A stretch of 64,000 nt of DNA, from the NCBI RefSeq assembly GCF_000283655.1, contig NC_016585.1, positions 5,001 through 69,000 of the forward strand. Reading direction: 5' to 3'. The position numbers and the translations under genes are program-made. This DNA is from Azospirillum lipoferum 4B. Lineage in GTDB: Bacteria > Pseudomonadota > Alphaproteobacteria > Azospirillales > Azospirillaceae. Under the pieces are notes generated by a model. It was not told where the DNA came from. It worked only from the letters and a program-made list of their open reading frames with translations, and made no database searches. How positions within the stretch are numbered: position 1 is the stretch's first letter; every line of letters starts with the position of its first letter. Positions 2,561-59,596 of this stretch are shown piece by piece.

Positions 2561-3103
2561 TAGGCCCTGTCGCGCGAGAATGACCGGCTGCGGCGACCGG
2601 CGGCAAGAGCTGACGTCCCCATGACGGCATCATGAAAAATCAGCGAAAAAGGCCGTCCCCGGCAAGCGGCAGCCTTGCAAAGGCAAGGGGATGCCGACGC
2701 AGCCGCCAACCCCACATCAGCGAGGGGCCGGGCCTGTGGTGGCGCCGACACATGCCCCGGCGCATAGGCAGGCATACATAAGGACACCCTTGACCATGGC
2801 GCCGCAACGGATCATGAAAGCGCCGTCCGCCCGTTCATGTATACGCATGTATCCGGTGCCGGCAGGTCTTGTTCTTTCTTTTGGCTGGGGCGCCAATGTT
2901 GCTTGCACAGCGCTTGGAAAGCCCAAGACTTGCCGTCTCGCGTCGGTACGGGTGCCGTCATACGGATGGCAAGCATTCGTTAACCATAAAGCGCCACACC
3001 ATGCGCGCGGCTCATCGCCGCGTTCAGCCGACCGCCGGGACCAGCCGATGAACGGGTCTCTTTGGCGCCACCGCGCTGATTCCCTTTGGAAGGCTGACAC
3101 AGC
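2561..3103. other. Intergenic region, no convincing gene
   Basis: This stretch of 543 bases has open frames only without family resemblance or good ribosome-binding sites. It contains a short hairpin (CCTTGC AAA GGCAAGG type, near 2672-2690) and ends in a clear Shine-Dalgarno GGAAGG at 3088-3093 for the next gene. I recognise no riboswitch, small RNA or tRNA in it. Confidence 0.5.
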
Positions 3104-51930: not shown

Positions 51931-52878
51931 ATGACCCAGACGACCAACGCCGAGCTGCTCGACCGGCCGCTGCAATTGGCTCTGCGGCTGGATTCTCCGC
52001 TGACCGGCGATGTCCAGAACGACCGCCACATGATGGTCTACAGCCTGTTCGGCCTGTCGAAGGACAAGGCGGAGTCGCTGCCGACCTACGATGACGGCAA
52101 GGTGCGGATCGAGGTGCGGGCGCCGAAGAATGTCGGCGTCGCGACGATCTGGGACAAGGCGGTGCTGCTCTACGCCATCTCGCTCCTGCGCGAGAAGATG
52201 GAACAGGGCAAGATGCCGGCCAAGCTGGGCGAGCTGCACTTCACCACCAGCGACCTCCAGCGCATCGTCGGCAAGACCGCCGGCGGCAGCGCCTACGACA
52301 AGATCGAAGGGGCGCTGGAACGGCTGCAGGGCACGCAGATCAAGACCAACCTGGAAACCGGCGGCGAGGGCGAAAGCGGCGCCTTCTCGTGGATTTCCGA
52401 CTACAAACTGCTGTACCAGCGCAAGAAGGACGGCGAGCGTGCGGTGCGCGGGCTGAAGCTGACCCTGTCGGGCTGGGTCACGCGCGCGGCGCTGGGCCAT
52501 AATCTGCTGAGCTACCATGACCAGTATTTCGCGCTGAAGCCGGTGGAGAAGCGCCTTTACGAGATCGCGCGCGCCCACCTCGCCCGCGGCCATGCCTTCT
52601 GGATGGCGCTGGAGCCGCTGCGCAAGCGCGTCGGTTCCGACAACGACCTGCGCAAGTTCAAGAACGCGCTGGGTCCTGTCCTGGCCGCCGACCGCATCCC
52701 CGGCTATGGCGTGCGCATCGTCGAGACGGCGGAATACAAGGAGACGATGAAGGCGCGCGGCGCCGTTCTCGGCCGCGTCCTGAATGCCGACCTGCCGGTG
52801 CTGTTCTGGAAGAAGGACCAGGGCCAGCCCGAGAACTGGATCGATGTTCCCAAGGTAGAATACGACGAAACGGTGTGA
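51931..52878 (+). CDS. repA: Replication initiator protein RepA
   Basis: The 315-aa protein begins MTQTTNAELLDRPLQLALRL and has the RepA landmarks DRHMMVYSLFGLSKDKAESL, NVGVATIWDKAVLLYAISLL and FSWISDYKLLYQRKKDGERA. It matches the replication initiator protein A family (winged-helix iteron binders) of alphaproteobacterial plasmids and chromids. It would bind the iterons upstream and control its own copy number. ATG at 51931 with GGAGAGA upstream; the frame is open back to 51793, but that part is iteron DNA. Confidence 0.92.
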   Translation: MTQTTNAELLDRPLQLALRLDSPLTGDVQNDRHMMVYSLFGLSKDKAESLPTYDDGKVRIEVRAPKNVGVATIWDKAVLLYAISLLREKMEQGKMPAKLGELHFTTSDLQRIVGKTAGGSAYDKIEGALERLQGTQIKTNLETGGEGESGAFSWISDYKLLYQRKKDGERAVRGLKLTLSGWVTRAALGHNLLSYHDQYFALKPVEKRLYEIARAHLARGHAFWMALEPLRKRVGSDNDLRKFKNALGPVLAADRIPGYGVRIVETAEYKETMKARGAVLGRVLNADLPVLFWKKDQGQPENWIDVPKVEYDETV

Positions 52879-52897
52879 ATCGCCCTCTCCCAGGGGC

Positions 52898-53105
52898 GGG
52901 CTATGGCATTCACACAATTCCAGGCATCGCTAAGCTTCTGAGACAAAAGGAACTTTGCGTCATCCCCGCGAAGGCGGGGATCCAGGAAACTCCGCAGATC
53001 AGCGGCGGATGTGGCTGGATTCCCGCCTTCGCGGGAATGACGGCCGACAAAATTGCTTTATTTCAACGTCTTAAGTGACGCTGAGATGTGTGAATGCCAT
53101 AGCCC
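52898..53105. repeat. Long inverted repeat between repA and parA
   Basis: GGGCTATGGCATTCACACA (52898-52916) is exactly complementary to 53087-53105. The arms lie 170 bases apart and enclose a REP hairpin. The motif GTGTGAAT occurs a third time right at the repA end (52873). The two ends are placed like operators or a partition site, or like the ends of a small miniature element. Confidence 0.7.
52958..53042. repeat. REP element with GAAGGCGGG palindrome
   Basis: CGTCATCCCCGCGAAGG starts one arm and its near-perfect complement (CGTCATTCCCGCGAAGG read on the other strand) ends at 53042. Each arm itself folds (CCCCGCGAAGGCGGGG). This motif type is a common dispersed repeat in many Proteobacteria. 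Confidence 0.85.
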
Positions 53106-53226
53106 CGGGGGGGCGGGAGAGGGAGTTCCATGCAATCCTCCCCACCCCTTCGGTAGACACCCGTTGCCGGAGTGGCGACGACTTGCTAGGGTCGTCGCAA
53201 CCGGTGCCGGTGCAGGAGGACGGGGC

Positions 53227-54249
53227 GTGACAGGGGAACAGTTGAAGGCGTTGCGGGAACGGCGCGGCCTGACCCAGACGCAGATGGCGGCGTTCGTCAA
53301 CGAGTTGACCGGCCGCAAATACGACAAGCAGCGGCTCAGCAAATGGGAGACCGGCAAGGAGGCCCTGCCCCGCGACGTGCTGGGCCGGCTTCTGCTGCTG
53401 GATCTGGAACGGCCGGAAAGCCCCCTGCCCCGCCCCGGCACCACCGTCGCCGTCGGACTGCAGAAGGGCGGCACGGCCAAGACCGCGACCTCCATCAACC
53501 TCGCCTTCATCCTGGCGCGCGCCGGCAACCGCGTTCTGCTGGTCGATGCCGATCCGCAGGGCAACGCCACCGTGCATGTCGGCGTGCCGCAGACCGACGT
53601 GGTGGCGCTGACCGAGGCCGGGAAGGTCCTCTACCACGCGCTGATGGGCAAGACGCCGCTCGATGCGGTGATCCGTCCGACCGGCGTCGAGGGGCTCGAC
53701 GTCGTGCCGTCCAGCATCGCGCTGGCGAGTGCCGATACCGAGCTGCCGGGCAACCTGACCAACGCCCAGACCGCGCTGGCCGAGATGCTGGACGGCGTGC
53801 GGGAGCGCTATGACGTGATCGTCATCGACTGCGCTCCCAACCTGGGCGCGGTGACCATCAACGCGCTGACCGCCGCCGATTACGTGCTGGTCCCCTGCCA
53901 GGCCGAGCCGCATGCCATCCTCGGCGTCAGCGCCTTCCTCGACACCGTCGCCAAGATCCAGCGGCGCCTGAACCCGCGGCTGGAGGTGCTGGGCATCCTG
54001 CCGACCATGGTCAACCCGCGCCAGACCCAGGACCGGTCGTCGCTGGAGGATATCGAGCGGCTGTGGGGCGACAGCCGCCGCGTGTTCCCGCCGGTGCCGC
54101 GCGCCACCATCTACGCCCAGGCGGCCGGCGCCAATGTCATCACGCTGGATGCCGACATCGGCGCCCCCGGTGTGGAGAGCTATGCCGCCATCGCCGCCGC
54201 GCTGCTGACCGCCATGGGCCGCCTGCAGGAGACCGTCGATGCCGCCTAA
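53227..54249 (+). CDS. parA: ParA partition ATPase with N-terminal helix-turn-helix
   Basis: The 340-aa protein starts at GTG 53227 with CAGGAGGA in front. Residues 1-60 form an XRE-type helix-turn-helix (LKALRERRGLTQTQMAAFVN), typical of ParA type Ia that also represses its operon. The ATPase follows: deviant Walker A QKGGTAKTATS, LLVDADPQGN and YDVIVIDCAPNLGAVTINAL. The signature lysine is kept, though Gly is replaced by Ala in the loop (GTAKT). It moves replicon copies with ParB. The end overlaps parB by 11 bases. Confidence 0.94.
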   Translation: MTGEQLKALRERRGLTQTQMAAFVNELTGRKYDKQRLSKWETGKEALPRDVLGRLLLLDLERPESPLPRPGTTVAVGLQKGGTAKTATSINLAFILARAGNRVLLVDADPQGNATVHVGVPQTDVVALTEAGKVLYHALMGKTPLDAVIRPTGVEGLDVVPSSIALASADTELPGNLTNAQTALAEMLDGVRERYDVIVIDCAPNLGAVTINALTAADYVLVPCQAEPHAILGVSAFLDTVAKIQRRLNPRLEVLGILPTMVNPRQTQDRSSLEDIERLWGDSRRVFPPVPRATIYAQAAGANVITLDADIGAPGVESYAAIAAALLTAMGRLQETVDAA

Positions 54250-55093
54250 GAAGCTGACCCGCCAGACAGCCGCCACCGTGCTCCAGGCCAAGGAGGCCGG
54301 CTTCGCCGCCGAGACCGACCGCATGTTCGGGTTGAGCGGCGTGCTGCCCCGTCTGGTCGAGGTCGATCTGGACGCCGTCGAGACCAATCCCGGCCAGCCG
54401 CGCACGGTCTTCGACGACGAGTCCCTGCGCTCGCTGGCGGACTCCATCGACCGTCACGGGCTGCAGCAACCCGTGCTGGTGCAGGAAGCGGCGGAGAAGG
54501 GCCGTTACCGTCTGGTGGCCGGCGAGCGGCGGCTGCGCGCCCACCGGCTGCTCGGCCGCGGCACCATCGCCGCGATCATCACCAAGGGCCGTCCGGAAGA
54601 GATCGCGCTGATCGAGAATGTCCAGCGCGTGGATCTGGACGCCATCGACCTTGCCCGCGGCCTGTCGCAGTTGATCGAAGCGCACGGCTACACCCAAGCG
54701 GAGGTGGCGGCGGCGGTCGGCTGTTCGGAGGCCGAGGTGTCCAAGCGCCTGAAGGTGCTGCGCCTGCCCGACGACATCCTGGCCGACTATCGCACCAACC
54801 CGGATGCGGTGTCGCGCTCGGCCCTGGTCGAGCTGGCCTTCGTCGAGGACGAGGCGGAGCTGCGCCGGCTTTGGCAGACGGCGCGCACCGGCGGGTTGAC
54901 CGTGGGCGCGGTGCGGGCGGCCCGTCCGTCGGCATCCTCGACGGCCGAGCCGCTGCGGGTCCTGGGCAAGGCGATCAACCGCATGGACAAGGATCTGGCC
55001 GCCATCGACACGGTCGCCCAATCCCTGCAGCGCGAACATCGCGAAAGGCTGCAGGCCCTGCGCGACCGTATCGACGCGCTGTTGAGCGGCTGA
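54239..55093 (+). CDS. parB: ParB partition protein
   Basis: The 284-aa protein has the CTP-binding N-domain with GERRLRAHRL and IENVQRVDLDAIDLARGLSQ, then the helix-turn-helix HGYTQAEVAAAVGCSEAEVS and KRLKVLRLP for parS binding, and a C-terminal dimer region (DKDLAAIDTVAQSLQREHRE). It loads onto parS and spreads as a clamp. The start lies inside parA and its stop codon touches the left arm of the parS candidate. Confidence 0.94.
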   Translation: MPPKKLTRQTAATVLQAKEAGFAAETDRMFGLSGVLPRLVEVDLDAVETNPGQPRTVFDDESLRSLADSIDRHGLQQPVLVQEAAEKGRYRLVAGERRLRAHRLLGRGTIAAIITKGRPEEIALIENVQRVDLDAIDLARGLSQLIEAHGYTQAEVAAAVGCSEAEVSKRLKVLRLPDDILADYRTNPDAVSRSALVELAFVEDEAELRRLWQTARTGGLTVGAVRAARPSASSTAEPLRVLGKAINRMDKDLAAIDTVAQSLQREHRERLQALRDRIDALLSG

Positions 55094-55251: not shown

Positions 55252-56805
55252 ATGCGGGCTGTGCACAGACGACAGTTCCTTGGTGCGTTCGGGGGCCTTC
55301 TCGGCGCCGCCGCGCTGTCCGGCGCCCTGTCGCGGCCGGGGCTGGCCGCCGCCGGCACCCTGCGCATCGGGCTGAAGTCCCTTCCCGCGGCGCTCAACCC
55401 GCTGACCGTCAGCGATCTGGTCGCCCGGCAGATCCTGGGTTCGATGTATGAAAGCCTGACCAGCGTCGATACGCAGGGCCGCATCCTGCCGGGGCTCGCC
55501 ACCGCCTGGGAAGCCTCGGAGGATGCCCGGCGCTGGCGGCTGACGATGCGCGACGGCGTGACCTTCCACACCGGCCGCCCCTTCACCGCCGCCGCCGTCA
55601 AACGCAGTTTCGAAGCGGCTCTGGCGGGTGACGGCGCCAACTTCGCGGTGCTGGCCCTGTCCAAGGTCCGCGGCTTTCGGGAGTTGCGGGCCAAGACGAC
55701 CGCCGAGCTGTCGGGCATCACCGTGATCGACGACCGGACGCTGGAGGTCGTCTGCGACGAGCCCAACGCCGTCTTCCCCTTCGCCCGCATCCACATCGTC
55801 GACGTCGATGCGGCCGAGCAGGCCGGTCCCAACTGGTTCCGCACCATGTCGGCGGGCACCGGCCCATACCGGCTGACCCGTTCGACCGAAGGCATCCGCA
55901 TCGATGTGGAGGCCAATCCAGGCTGGCGCGGCGGTGCGGTGCCGTTCGAGCGGGTGTCCTTCCTCGCCACCGGCATCGGCAATGACGGCATCACGCTGTT
56001 CAACGACAGCCAGGTCGATTTCACCTTCGTCGACACCGATGCGCTGCGCGGGGTGATGGACGATCCCGGTTTCAAGCGGTCGCTGACCAATGTGCAGCGG
56101 ATGCAGATGCGGGTGGTGGCGCTCGACCAGCGCCGGGTAAAGGCCTTCGCCGATCTGCGGGTGCGTCGGGCGATGTCGCTGCTGATCGACCGCGACGCGA
56201 TGGCGGAACGCTTCTTCCGCGGCGTGGCCACCGTCCACAACGGGGTCGTGCCGCCGGCCCTGCTGTCGAACGAAAGGCTGGAGCCGCTGGCCTATGATCC
56301 GACATTGGCGGCGCGCCTGCTGGAAGAGGCCGGCTATCCGGCGGGGCGCGGCATCGATCCCTTCATCGTCGCCGTCATTCCGGAATACCGGCGCGAGTTC
56401 GTCTATTACGTGTCGCAATGGAACAATGCCGGCATTCCGGCGAAGCTGACCATCGTCCCGCGGCAGGAGTTCATCGCCCGCTCCCGCCGGCGCGATTATG
56501 ATTCCTTCCTGTTCGGCTGGACCGCCACTTATCCCGACCCGATGAATTTCCTGGATGAGCTGTTCAACAGCCGCAGCCGCTTCAATCCCGTCGGCTGGTC
56601 CAATGCGGAGTTCGACGGGCTGGTCGAGCGCGCGATGGCCATCGCGGACCCCGACCGCCGTGCCGAGGTCTACAAGGATGCCGAGTCCCTGGTGATGAAG
56701 GACATGCCGGTGATCCCGCTGGTCGTGCCGGATTACGTGGCGCTGCGCGGCAACGTGCTGAGCGAGAATTTCATCACGCCGTTCGGAGGTCTCAACTTCG
56801 GCTGA
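55252..56805 (+). CDS. Family-5 ABC transporter substrate-binding protein (peptide/nickel type)
   Basis: The 517-aa protein starts MRAVHRRQFLGAFGGLLGAAALS, with a twin-arginine-like signal (RRQFLG), then the DppA/OppA-type fold: LTVSDLVARQILGSMYESLT, WRLTMRDGVTFHTGRPFTAA and FLFGWTATYPDPMNFLDELF. It binds peptides or small amides for an ABC importer, but no permease or ATPase is adjacent. It follows parB by 158 bases. The frame is open from 55219; the signal sequence fixes 55252. Confidence 0.88.
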   Translation: MRAVHRRQFLGAFGGLLGAAALSGALSRPGLAAAGTLRIGLKSLPAALNPLTVSDLVARQILGSMYESLTSVDTQGRILPGLATAWEASEDARRWRLTMRDGVTFHTGRPFTAAAVKRSFEAALAGDGANFAVLALSKVRGFRELRAKTTAELSGITVIDDRTLEVVCDEPNAVFPFARIHIVDVDAAEQAGPNWFRTMSAGTGPYRLTRSTEGIRIDVEANPGWRGGAVPFERVSFLATGIGNDGITLFNDSQVDFTFVDTDALRGVMDDPGFKRSLTNVQRMQMRVVALDQRRVKAFADLRVRRAMSLLIDRDAMAERFFRGVATVHNGVVPPALLSNERLEPLAYDPTLAARLLEEAGYPAGRGIDPFIVAVIPEYRREFVYYVSQWNNAGIPAKLTIVPRQEFIARSRRRDYDSFLFGWTATYPDPMNFLDELFNSRSRFNPVGWSNAEFDGLVERAMAIADPDRRAEVYKDAESLVMKDMPVIPLVVPDYVALRGNVLSENFITPFGGLNFG

Positions 56806-56893: not shown

Positions 56894-57505
56894 TCAGGCG
56901 TCCTGAGAGCGCGCTTCGCGCAGGCAATCGGCGGCCTTGGCCTCGCGCAGGCAGTCGGCGGCCTTGGCCTCGCGCAGGCAGTCGGCGGCCTTGGCCTCGC
57001 GCAGGCAGTCGGCGGCCTTGGCCTCGCGCAGGCAGTCGGCGGCCTTGGCCTCGCGCAAGCAGTCGGCGGCCTTGGCCTCACGCAGGCAATCGGCAGCCTT
57101 GGCTTCGCGCAGGCAGTCGGCACTCTTCGCTTCGCGCAGGCAATCCGCGGTGGCGAACAGGCGGGCGCTGTCGGTGCGGGCGGCCGCCATGCGGTCGGCG
57201 GGGACGGTAACACCGTTGTGGTGCAGGTACTCGCCATACACCGCCTCGCAGAAGCGGAAATAGGCGCGGGTGTCGGCGACGATGAACTCATGCCACAGGT
57301 CGTCGCAGGCGGCCGATTGCGGAACGATGTCACGGTCCGGATGCTCGGCGCAGGCCAGCAGGAAGGTCTTCAGCTGCTGCAGCGCGATCTCGGACGTGGC
57401 GCGGGTCATCCCCGCGGCGACCGCCCGGTCGACCACATAGCCAAAGTCGAAACCGGCGATGATGTCCCGGGCACGCGTGATCTCGGTTGTGGTGGCGCCG
57501 TGCAT
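56894..57505 (-). CDS. WH-domain protein with nine tandem 9-residue Cys repeats
   Basis: The 203-aa protein starts MHGATTTEITRARDIIAGFD with GGGAGGA before the ATG at 57505. The middle, FLLACAEHPDRDIV, DDLWHEFIVADTRAYFRFCE and YGEYLHHN (W71, H72, His95-96), resembles the glycine-rich-domain-like family (WH...YxxFC...GxxxHH). From about 119 the C-terminus is nine copies of a nine-residue unit with consensus ADCLREAKA, one Cys per unit. No signal peptide and no partner gene was recognised. A cysteine-rich redox or metal protein, or a peptide precursor, are both possible. Confidence 0.8.
   Translation of the reverse strand: MHGATTTEITRARDIIAGFDFGYVVDRAVAAGMTRATSEIALQQLKTFLLACAEHPDRDIVPQSAACDDLWHEFIVADTRAYFRFCEAVYGEYLHHNGVTVPADRMAAARTDSARLFATADCLREAKSADCLREAKAADCLREAKAADCLREAKAADCLREAKAADCLREAKAADCLREAKAADCLREAKAADCLREARSQDA
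56913..57155 (-). repeat. 27-bp tandem repeat array (nine units) inside the WH-domain gene
   Basis: Nine contiguous units of 27 bp, each containing GCAGGCAGTCGGCGG (plus strand), with few changes between middle copies and more at the left end (GCAGGCAATCCGCGG). No spacers separate them, so this is a coding minisatellite. Copy number probably varies by slippage. Confidence 0.9.
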
Positions 57506-57661
57506 GGAATCCTCCCAAGTTGCTTGTTCAAGCCCGTGAAACGGGTTGCAGGACTGGTTCCGGGCATGACCCCACTGTTGTGCCACAGCACAGTTGGATA
57601 TGTGAGATAATTTTAGTCCTAAGTATTCGACTCGGGACAGATGACGTCCGTCAGGCCCGTC

Positions 57662-59596
57662 TTATATGGGGCGGGTCCTGCGCGCCGCGGCGGCATCGAC
57701 CGAGGCGGAAAGGGCAGGCCGCGCGGCGGTCATCGCGTCCACCAGCATCGACAGGCGGTCGGGCATGATCGGCTTGGCGGCCACGATCACGCCCATCTCC
57801 GCCGCCCGGCCGGTCATCGCCCCGTCGAGCCGGCCGGAGATCAGCACCGCCGGAATCCGCAGGCCCAGCCGTGCCCACAGCGCGGCGATGAAATCCAGGC
57901 CGTTCTCGGTGGCGGACAGGTGATAGTCGGCGATCACCGCATCGGGACGGACGGTCCCGTCCTCCACCGCCCGCAGCCCCTCGGCGACGCTGGAGGCGCC
58001 GACCACGCGATGCCCGGCACTGGTCAGGAACATGGAGATGGCGGACAGCACGAAGCCGTCGTCGTCGATCACCAGGATCGCGAACTCCCCCTCTTTCGCG
58101 GGGGCGTCCGCCAGCGTCGCCGTCGCTGCCGCAGGGGCTGGGGCTGGGGCTGGGGCTGGGGCTGGGGCGGGAGCGGGGTCAGGAAGAGCCGGTTCCGGCT
58201 CGGCAACGGTTTCCACCGGCGCCAGCGGAATGGTGACCGAGAAGACCGACCCCTTGCCCAGCGTGGAGCGCACCTTCACCGGATGGTCCAGCACCGTCGC
58301 CAGCCGCTTGACGATGGACAGCCCCAGCCCGATGCCGTTGTCGCGGTTGCGCTCCTGGTTGCCGATCTGGTGGAACTCCTCGAAGATGGCGTCCAGCCGG
58401 TCTGCGGGGATGCCGATGCCGCTGTCCCGCACCTCGACAATCAGGGTGCCGCCGGATTCCAGGCAGGCGACCTGCACCGTCCCGCTGGCGGTATAGCGGA
58501 TCGCGTTGTCGATCAGGTTGCCCAGCAGGCGCTGCAGCAGAATGCGGTCGGTCACCACCGGCGCGCGGTATTGCGGCACGGCGAAAGCCAGCCCCTTGGC
58601 GCGCGCCACCGGGCCGTATTGCGATTCCAGCGCGTCGAACAGGTCGGCGATCTCATGCACGCCTTTGTTCGCCGTGACGCCGCCGGCATCCAGCCGCGAC
58701 ACCTCCAGCAGCTCGTCCAGCAGCTGCTTCAGCGTCATCACCACCTGTTCGATCTTGCGCGCCGATTCCGCCACCTTCGGGTTGGGGGCGGTGGCGCGCA
58801 GCATCGCGGTCAGCATCAGCAGCGACTGGGCCGGCTGGCGCAGGTCGTGGCTGGCGGCGGCCATGAACTTGGCCTTCGACGCCACCGCCTGCTCGGCCCG
58901 TTCCTTGGCGAGGCGCAGGTCGATGGCGTTCTGCCGGAAGGTGGCGAGCGCCTTGGCCATGCGGCCGATCTCGTCGTCGCGGTGACGCACCGGCACGTCC
59001 ACCGTCACGTCGCCGGCCGCCAGATCGGCCATGGCGCGGGTCATGCCGGCGATGGGCAGGGTCATGCCGCGGGTCGCCCACACCACCCCCAGCACCACCA
59101 GCAGGAGGGTGACGGCGCCGACCCCGCCCAGAACCATCACATGGTGGCGGATGGCGGCGTCGGTCGGCCCGGTATCGAGCCGGACCAGCAGAGTGCCGAT
59201 GTTGCGGACGGCGCCGGTCCGGTCCTGGTGGGTCAGCGTCACGGCGGCGGCGGTGGCGGCGGCCTCGCTGACGATGGTCACGCCCGGCTTGCGGAAGGTG
59301 GCGAAGCGTTCGCCATGGGTGCCCAGGATCACCGCCTCGGCGAAGCTGTCGATCGAGCGCAGCGGCATCAGCGCCGTCACCGCTTCCTCGGGATCGAGGT
59401 CCCACAGCGCGTTCGCCACGTCGTCCAGCACGATCCTGGTCGCCATCTCGGCCCGGATGGCCAGCTCGGCGCGGGTGTTGCGCACGTCGGCCTGGATCAG
59501 CACCACCATCGGCACGGCGATCAGCACCGACACCAGCAGCACCGCCGATGCCGTCGTCCGGGCGACCAGGCTCCGTGAAAAAACCTTGAACAGCAT
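57662..59596 (-). CDS. Hybrid histidine kinase with HAMP domain and receiver
   Basis: The 644-aa kinase starts MLFKVFSRSLVARTTASAVL with a first membrane helix at about 15-35. Its periplasmic sensor is followed by a second helix (GGVGAVTLLLVVLGVVWATR) and HAMP. His250 lies in AAASHDLRQPAQSL and the ATPase domain has RDSGIGIP and NGIGLGLSIVKRL. A Pro-Ala repeat linker follows, then a receiver with Asp557 (PDAVIADYHL). The sensor input is unknown. It is divergent from the second hybrid kinase at 59891; a shared signalling circuit is likely but unproven. Confidence 0.9.
   Translation of the reverse strand: MLFKVFSRSLVARTTASAVLLVSVLIAVPMVVLIQADVRNTRAELAIRAEMATRIVLDDVANALWDLDPEEAVTALMPLRSIDSFAEAVILGTHGERFATFRKPGVTIVSEAAATAAAVTLTHQDRTGAVRNIGTLLVRLDTGPTDAAIRHHVMVLGGVGAVTLLLVVLGVVWATRGMTLPIAGMTRAMADLAAGDVTVDVPVRHRDDEIGRMAKALATFRQNAIDLRLAKERAEQAVASKAKFMAAASHDLRQPAQSLLMLTAMLRATAPNPKVAESARKIEQVVMTLKQLLDELLEVSRLDAGGVTANKGVHEIADLFDALESQYGPVARAKGLAFAVPQYRAPVVTDRILLQRLLGNLIDNAIRYTASGTVQVACLESGGTLIVEVRDSGIGIPADRLDAIFEEFHQIGNQERNRDNGIGLGLSIVKRLATVLDHPVKVRSTLGKGSVFSVTIPLAPVETVAEPEPALPDPAPAPAPAPAPAPAPAAATATLADAPAKEGEFAILVIDDDGFVLSAISMFLTSAGHRVVGASSVAEGLRAVEDGTVRPDAVIADYHLSATENGLDFIAALWARLGLRIPAVLISGRLDGAMTGRAAEMGVIVAAKPIMPDRLSMLVDAMTAARPALSASVDAAAARRTRPI

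Follow-up and report, generated by a model that had tools for sequence, protein, structure and literature searches.

The window analysed here, a 64,000-nucleotide stretch of DNA from Azospirillum lipoferum 4B, codes for a WH-domain protein in which a conserved N-terminal domain is joined to a tail of near-identical short units with one cysteine each. The tail is a tandem array whose unit is under purifying selection, relatives of the protein carry other cysteine- or serine-centred units, and the gene is linked across genomes to genes for sensor kinases and binding proteins. Because selection acts on the unit, because the domain is conserved while the units change, and because of the linkage to sensor and binding-protein genes, we favor a reading in which the protein would be a two-part precursor of a multi-copy short peptide, perceived by the adjoining sensor kinase, bound by the binding protein, or both. 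This reading is tentative and is given a little under an even chance. The features of the window that bear on it are:

56894..57505, minus strand: WH-domain coding sequence of 203 residues, with a GRDP-like N-domain and a nine-unit tail (ORF call)
57152..57505, minus strand: N-terminal domain, residues 1–118 (alignments, helical model)
56906..57148, minus strand: nine tandem 27-bp/9-residue units ADCLREAxx, residues 120–200 (Tandem Repeats Finder and translation)
57506..57661, minus strand: upstream intergenic region with the Shine-Dalgarno sequence GGGAGGA and the block ATCTCACATAT ... CACAACA
57662..59542, minus strand: upstream sensor, a CHASE8-like-HAMP-HisKA-HATPase-REC hybrid histidine kinase (Pfam)
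55261..56805, plus strand: convergent SBP_bac_5-like solute-binding protein (translation, synteny, homologue L117)
51931..55093, plus strand: syntenic replication and partition genes, RepA-, ParA- and ParB-like (gene calls, names from the annotated record L016; context only)

The protein is laid out as an N-domain of 118 residues, a single linking residue, the nine units of nine residues and an end of three residues. Its start can plausibly be placed at the ATG at 57505, which has GGGAGGA just 5' of it; since 11 of the 15 upstream regions aligned from relatives have GGAGG at the same place, a longer ORF from a GTG (to 57586) is not needed. The block ATCTCACATAT ... CACAACA is common to most close Azospirillum relatives, with CACAACA in 12 of the 15 upstream regions and three regions diverging from the block (L011, L013, L014), and it is a possible promoter or regulator site. 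The closest genome (G001) carries the same gene, with 91% identity over residues 1–173.

Tandem Repeats Finder reports the array with a period of 27, 8.7 copies, 92% matches and a score of 379, the second-best array of the window scoring 87, and the nine near-identical cysteine units of the original prediction are thereby confirmed. They run in the order ADCLREAKS, seven times ADCLREAKA and ADCLREARS, and by eye four successive middle copies are identical at the DNA level. A scan of the genome collection with this single protein, which reaches close relatives only, returned 13 loci, all of Azospirillum, and the ADCLREA array is present in 13/13, with 4–15 units each. Plasmid records extend from 3 units (B510, L017) to 17 (A. 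ramasamyi, L016); in the comparison between strains that the original prediction had proposed, the arrays thus vary in length between 3 and 17 units.

Blind nine-residue stepping through the arrays of 20 proteins gave 175 heptads, 174 of which contain the DCLR core, the odd one, in L017, lying beyond the end of its array; this recurrence exceeds chance. The D, C, L and R are each encoded by several synonymous codons, so that the DNA varies where the protein stays constant, and D, L and R match the cysteine in invariance. Between adjacent units of the 20 proteins, the DCLRE codons (2–6) show 333 synonymous versus 7 non-synonymous single-base differences (neutral sites 1742:5789), whereas the linker codons 8–9 show 21 synonymous versus 30 non-synonymous differences (neutral sites 706:2266); adjacent units being non-independent, these ratios are descriptive, but the contrast between core and linker is strong. 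On this codon evidence the heptad ADCLREA is a selected unit under strong purifying selection, followed by a two-residue spacer. With the linkers free, each heptad can therefore be regarded as a functional unit.

The identity of the middle copies had been taken to mean recent expansion or homogenisation, which fits the copy number, as this turns over, but not the unit sequence, which is kept by strong purifying selection. That the array is neutral, a product of slippage with no function of its own, is hardly credible: the DNA identity of four of the window's copies and the spread of copy numbers among relatives (3–17) speak for it, but the synonymous bias on DCLRE (333 versus 7) and the keeping of the array in all 13 Azospirillum loci speak against it. 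The same two observations refute neutral slippage as the source of the unit sequence and dispose of the earlier worry that the array was a slippage artefact of one strain. The copy number itself may be near-neutral.

In a wider survey, a sample of 398 genomes from the phylum yielded the WH domain in 30; it was also found in 49 of 82 genomes of the window's own family, the Azospirillaceae, and in 46 of 145 genomes of the family to which genome G295 belongs. The tails of these homologues, which the original prediction had singled out for listing, change with lineage (e.g., AYCAR, GAACYLS, GAGCFV, VECGIAV, and AFCGIVKPP), and most share one plan. Among the Azospirillaceae the multi-copy tails include, besides ADCLREA, GAGCF (six copies), GAACYLS (four), VECG (three), and AEQCW and DFAMCI (two each), while single-copy tails include ELAGCYLTV and AGAECYREP. 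Cupriavidus plasmids carry AYCARxA units at irregular spacing, a form bridging to ADCLREA. In G295's family there are 2–18 copies of small-[YFW]-[CS] per tail; 32 distinct tails hold 285 such motifs versus 23.8 expected (200 shuffles each), the tails counted being those that fit a domain pattern, with non-fitting WH ORFs dropped and close relatives entered separately. In these 32 tails 148 of the 149 cysteines stand directly after an aromatic residue, and the motif residue is only cysteine in 16, only serine in 14 and both in 2, none being without the motif.

Distant members have Gly/Ser/Cys-rich tails, some very rich in cysteine and some with hydrophobic stretches, and tails without cysteine are found in Pseudomonas (L024), Maritalea (L023) and Vibrio (L022). 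Many relatives carry a single copy of the motif, single- and multi-copy forms coexisting, and homologues without any repeats, which the original prediction had counted against itself, do occur in distant relatives. Two further observations concern tails: WH proteins of two different genomes (L103:8823-9317 and L104:8985-9476) have the common odd tail RCxxHACHxPxSCACRxPGACK, and contigs of the viral collection (L156, L157, L179, L181-L184, L187), some of which may be cellular DNA, encode WH proteins with Ser/Gly/Cys-rich tails. Across the tails compared, the common denominator is a short motif centred on cysteine or serine, often in multiple copies, as opposed to a plain cysteine ladder. Since linkers vary and units number from 1 to 18, the unit would seem to work singly and to be multiplied; on these tails, the pattern fits either multi-core precursors or short motifs acting multivalently.

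The N-domain preceding these tails is much less variable. In two alignments, of 10 and 21 sequences, P62, D68, W71, H72, T79, Y82, C86, G91, H95 and H96 are invariant or nearly so. F21 joins the same ten residues as invariant in the 10-sequence alignment of diverse members, while in the 21-sequence alignment the invariant positions are F48, P62, D68, H72, Y82 and H96. In further relatives W71 is replaced by Leu (L088, L090, L118), C86 by Met (L088-L090, L108-L110) and H95 by Asp (L086, L091), and these three are therefore not family-wide. The window protein was assigned no family by Pfam or NCBIfam, and PF07173, the profile of the GRDP-like proteins that the original prediction had seen in this domain, matched neither the full protein at E<=1 nor the N-domain at E<=10. 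The profile was above its cut-off in two of six genomes searched (G413, and G566 only when its neighbours are included in the frame), just under it in both WH proteins of G295, and at 2.7e-4 in one member of A2; it found nothing in G001 and nothing in 14 control genomes. The proposed profile search of residues 1–118 thus failed for the window protein itself and succeeded for two of its relatives.

An AlphaFold model (mean pLDDT 80.7, pTM 0.56, 21 sequences) predicts a six-helix domain, with a block at pLDDT 85-95 over residues 11–90, followed by the tail as one long helix. Among the structures of a viral library the model best matches one named as GRDP-like, at probability 1.00 and E 6.4e-3, and next come other giant-virus proteins; comparison with PDB folds gave no convincing match. 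Taking the structural match together with the profile matches in the two relatives, we conclude that the N-domain probably belongs to the GRDP-like superfamily as a remote bacterial member; the resemblance claimed earlier is borne out, with the window protein itself unmatched by the profile. Searches for other families gave no BURP domain (Pfam, window protein), no TIGR04222 or other NCBIfam match (window protein at E<=10, ten WH N-domains at E<=0.1), Vanabin-2 at only E 0.28 and 11.8 bits against a cut-off of 25 (window protein), and, from Pfam and NCBIfam, no recognised catalytic family for the N-domain.

Tail and domain together allow an explanation by thiol function to be weighed, in which the cysteine ladder would serve as a redox buffer or as a store or delivery device for metal, with the D, H and C residues of the N-domain as a putative metal site. 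A tail cysteine is present in 34 of 34 Azospirillaceae WH proteins (L086-L125, six loci of other families excluded), distant members can be very cysteine-rich, D68, H72, C86, H95 and H96 are invariant or nearly so in the two alignments, and SBP_bac_5 proteins include importers of metal chelates. Against this, 14 of the 32 tails in G295's family have serine only without losing the motif, D, L and R of the unit are as invariant as its cysteine, a cysteine only every nine residues is a low density for a metal cluster, and the replacements of C86 and H95 mean that the putative metal set is not family-wide. The explanation is therefore improbable as a general one: as serine can stand in place of cysteine with the pattern around it preserved, there is no general requirement for thiol chemistry, though it may be required within the Azospirillaceae. 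Four roles had been thought conceivable for the array, of which the multi-core peptide precursor is the best supported, whereas redox buffering, a metal ladder and a cross-linked fibre dependent on thiols find no support as a general rule, given the serine-only tails and the many single-copy relatives.

A still slimmer chance is given to self-modification, according to which the N-domain would be an enzyme acting in cis on the tandem units, in the manner of fused burpitide cyclases. The conserved polar residues (D68, H72, H96 and others), the pairing of Cys/Ser with an aromatic residue in the units of G295's family, and the fact that no separate enzyme was recognised beside the window gene would all suit such an enzyme. 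However, no catalytic family was recognised for the N-domain, and some relatives have other residues at W71, C86 and H95; it is this variation of putative site residues that lowers its odds. Equally remote is the fuller proposal, for Pseudomonadota, of a GRDP-like enzyme, fused to its own substrate and modifying Cys/Ser, whose lineage-specific peptides would be sensed by an adjoining CHASE-type kinase or SBP_bac_5-type protein.

The third line of evidence for the precursor reading comes from the neighbours. In the window kinase the CHASE8-like part is found at E 2.2e-4 and 21.9 bits, under the cut-off of 27, and a GGGGCT array of 5.8 copies (58134-58168) encodes an Ala-Pro linker inside the protein. 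The convergent binding protein has SBP_bac_5 recognised by Pfam in its homologue L117 (35% identity), its syntenic place is annotated as an ABC transporter substrate-binding protein, and RRQFLG in its N-terminus is, by eye, presumably a Tat signal. The syntenic annotated record (L016), an A. ramasamyi replicon, likewise has RepA, ParA- and ParB-type genes with a substrate-binding protein. Among the genes immediately flanking the WH gene in the window, none was recognised as an exporter, a protease or a modifying enzyme.

In genome-wide searches the linkage recurs. With the best 15 first-look candidates scored per genome, 21 of the 23 matches to the window kinase at E<=5.8e-128 lie within 5 kb of a WH match, one in another genus (G475). 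With the best 18 scored, the window's binding protein has 45 matches (E<=1e-60) in 44 of the 82 Azospirillaceae genomes, and 38 of these matches have a WH match no more than 5 kb away; the remaining seven comprise four on contigs other than those of the WH matches and three in genomes without a detected WH gene. This linkage is seen at two different kinds of locus. When the binding protein beside the single-copy ELAGCYLTV gene (L117) was searched against G001, the best of 12 matches adjoined the ADCLREA gene, at 1e-78 versus 5e-44 for the next match, and binding-protein identities between the two groups are 31-38%; judged from these similarities, the binding-protein link connects WH subfamilies that are quite unlike each other and lie at different loci. 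The gene order of the second subfamily is WH gene, PAS-LuxR-like regulator, binding protein and two putative permease-like genes. When genes up to seven places away from the WH gene were clustered by loose single linkage, this regulator (C0, with Pfam matches below cut-off) appeared in 15 of 40 loci, and an EamA-type transporter gene within seven genes in 11 of 40, in another Azospirillaceae group:

L087, L092-L094, L097, L099, L100, L111, L116, L120 and L124: EamA-linked loci (Pfam on one representative)

In G295's family the neighbour is a kinase of CHASE-HisKA_3 architecture, as determined by Pfam on three representatives. By gene calls, 18 of 20 loci have it next to the WH gene, in the same or in divergent orientation, and in the other two (G494, G482) the genome-wide search places a kinase match beside the WH gene. 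With the best 9 first-look candidates scored per genome, all 35 CHASE-kinase matches at E<=1e-150 (34 genomes) begin no more than 3.2 kb from a WH match, and conversely all 37 genomes with a WH match at E<=1.6e-27 have a CHASE-kinase match within 4 kb; the tails read for 31 of these 37 genomes are all multi-copy. Among the displayed genes, only the CHASE kinase is common to the syntenic block and to the differently placed L158, L159 and L161, and no recurrent exporter, protease or modifying enzyme was seen at the 20 loci. On one Cupriavidus plasmid a CHASE-GAF-GGDEF-EAL gene lies directly upstream of the WH gene. The gene calls in the window and in relatives are home-made and miss or shorten genes (L167 shows no kinase and L176 a piece, the genome search finding both), and much of the synteny within clades is vertical inheritance.

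The association is not obligatory. Two genomes (G415, G440) keep the kinase and the binding protein, nearly touching, with no WH gene between them, and at one array locus (L014) the kinase stands beside the array gene with the binding protein absent there:

L188, about 2979-3018, and L189, about 2941-2977: WH-less kinase/binding-protein junctions of G415 and G440

Kinase and binding protein therefore do not depend on the WH gene. A different kind of neighbourhood is seen in two distant genomes, where a WH gene with a short cysteine tail heads a gene set (L106:8886-15121 and L107:217-7183). Common to both sets are a SAM methyltransferase (c42) and a large protein (c41), which in L106 Pfam identifies as a UvrA-like ABC ATPase. 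A 290-residue gene is present in each (TauD-like in L106, the two not clustering), and the set of L107 adds a pentapeptide-repeat protein; the gene content suggests a small set for biosynthesis or self-resistance.

The main rival to the precursor reading is a multivalent docking tail, in which a cytoplasmic protein would use its repeated motif to bind the kinase, a response regulator or its own domain, for avidity or the assembly of a complex. It is unlikely on balance, but of the alternatives it carries the most weight: no signal peptide is visible by eye in the N-terminus of the 203-residue window protein, single- and multi-copy relatives coexist, sensor or regulator genes adjoin the WH gene, and the tail is predicted to be helical. 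What tells against it is that among the genes most specifically linked in the Azospirillaceae is a binding protein of exported type, which is no cytoplasmic partner, and that the motifs vary widely within one family while the type of kinase stays constant.

The precursor reading can be spelled out as follows. The N-terminal GRDP-like domain would fold and act as leader or carrier, with the tail as a string of near-identical short units centred on cysteine, or serine in some relatives, that are used singly. Cleavage, perhaps after modification, would release a short peptide, which would be exported and perceived outside the cytoplasm by the adjoining sensor kinase and could also be bound by the adjoining oligopeptide-type binding protein. 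Several observations count against it: the lack of a visible signal peptide and of an exporter, protease or modifying enzyme at the locus, tails without cysteine in some relatives, sensors that differ by lineage, and the single long helix modelled for the ADCLREA tail, which would equally suit docking or a structural rod. The loci of G415 and G440 without the WH gene, and that of L014 without the binding protein, likewise count against a dependence between precursor and neighbours.

Multi-core precursors and proteins in which enzyme and cores are fused are already known, as described for burpitides (PMC11253845). In the open-licence literature searched, we found no description of a GRDP-like domain that carries tandem Cys/Ser units differing by lineage and whose gene is linked to CHASE kinases and SBP_bac_5-type proteins. 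The WH protein system may be a hitherto undescribed means of producing a peptide signal in many copies. If so, a widespread 'hypothetical protein' would become a peptide system open to testing, its probable receptor encoded beside it, the lineage-specific units offer a ready-made key for pairing peptide with sensor, and the GRDP-like domain gains a functional lead in bacteria. To our knowledge, bacterial CHASE-domain kinases seldom have a candidate ligand.

Among known systems, the GRDP-like proteins (PF07173) probably share the N-domain, as the profile matches in G413 and G566 and the top structural match indicate, but have a long glycine-rich region where the window protein has a short repeated cysteine peptide. 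The distant WH-domain members with Gly/Ser/Cys-rich tails are reminiscent of membrane proteins of the TIGR04222 type, whose tails are Gly/Cys-rich, whereas the window protein has no NCBIfam match. Peptide pheromone systems are read via oligopeptide-binding proteins, and the window similarly places a possible short-peptide product beside an SBP_bac_5-like protein and a sensor; its host, however, is Gram-negative, and secretion and a mature peptide are here conjectural. The multi-core RiPP precursors, such as those of the burpitides, cyanobactins and dikaritins, combine a conserved leader-like part with several near-identical short cores and free linkers, and a conserved N-domain and lineage-specific tails are likewise found here in one ORF, with the roles of leader and core being putative. 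They differ in that the window gene has no recognised modifying enzyme, protease or exporter beside it, its neighbours being the kinase and the binding protein; the methyltransferase of L106 and L107 is the exception to the lack of a nearby modifying enzyme. Finally, the fused burpitide cyclases (PMC11253845) are BURP-domain proteins that unite a folded domain and several core repeats in one protein. While the window protein has no BURP match, is bacterial and carries its units C-terminally, it likewise joins a folded domain to a series of repeats.
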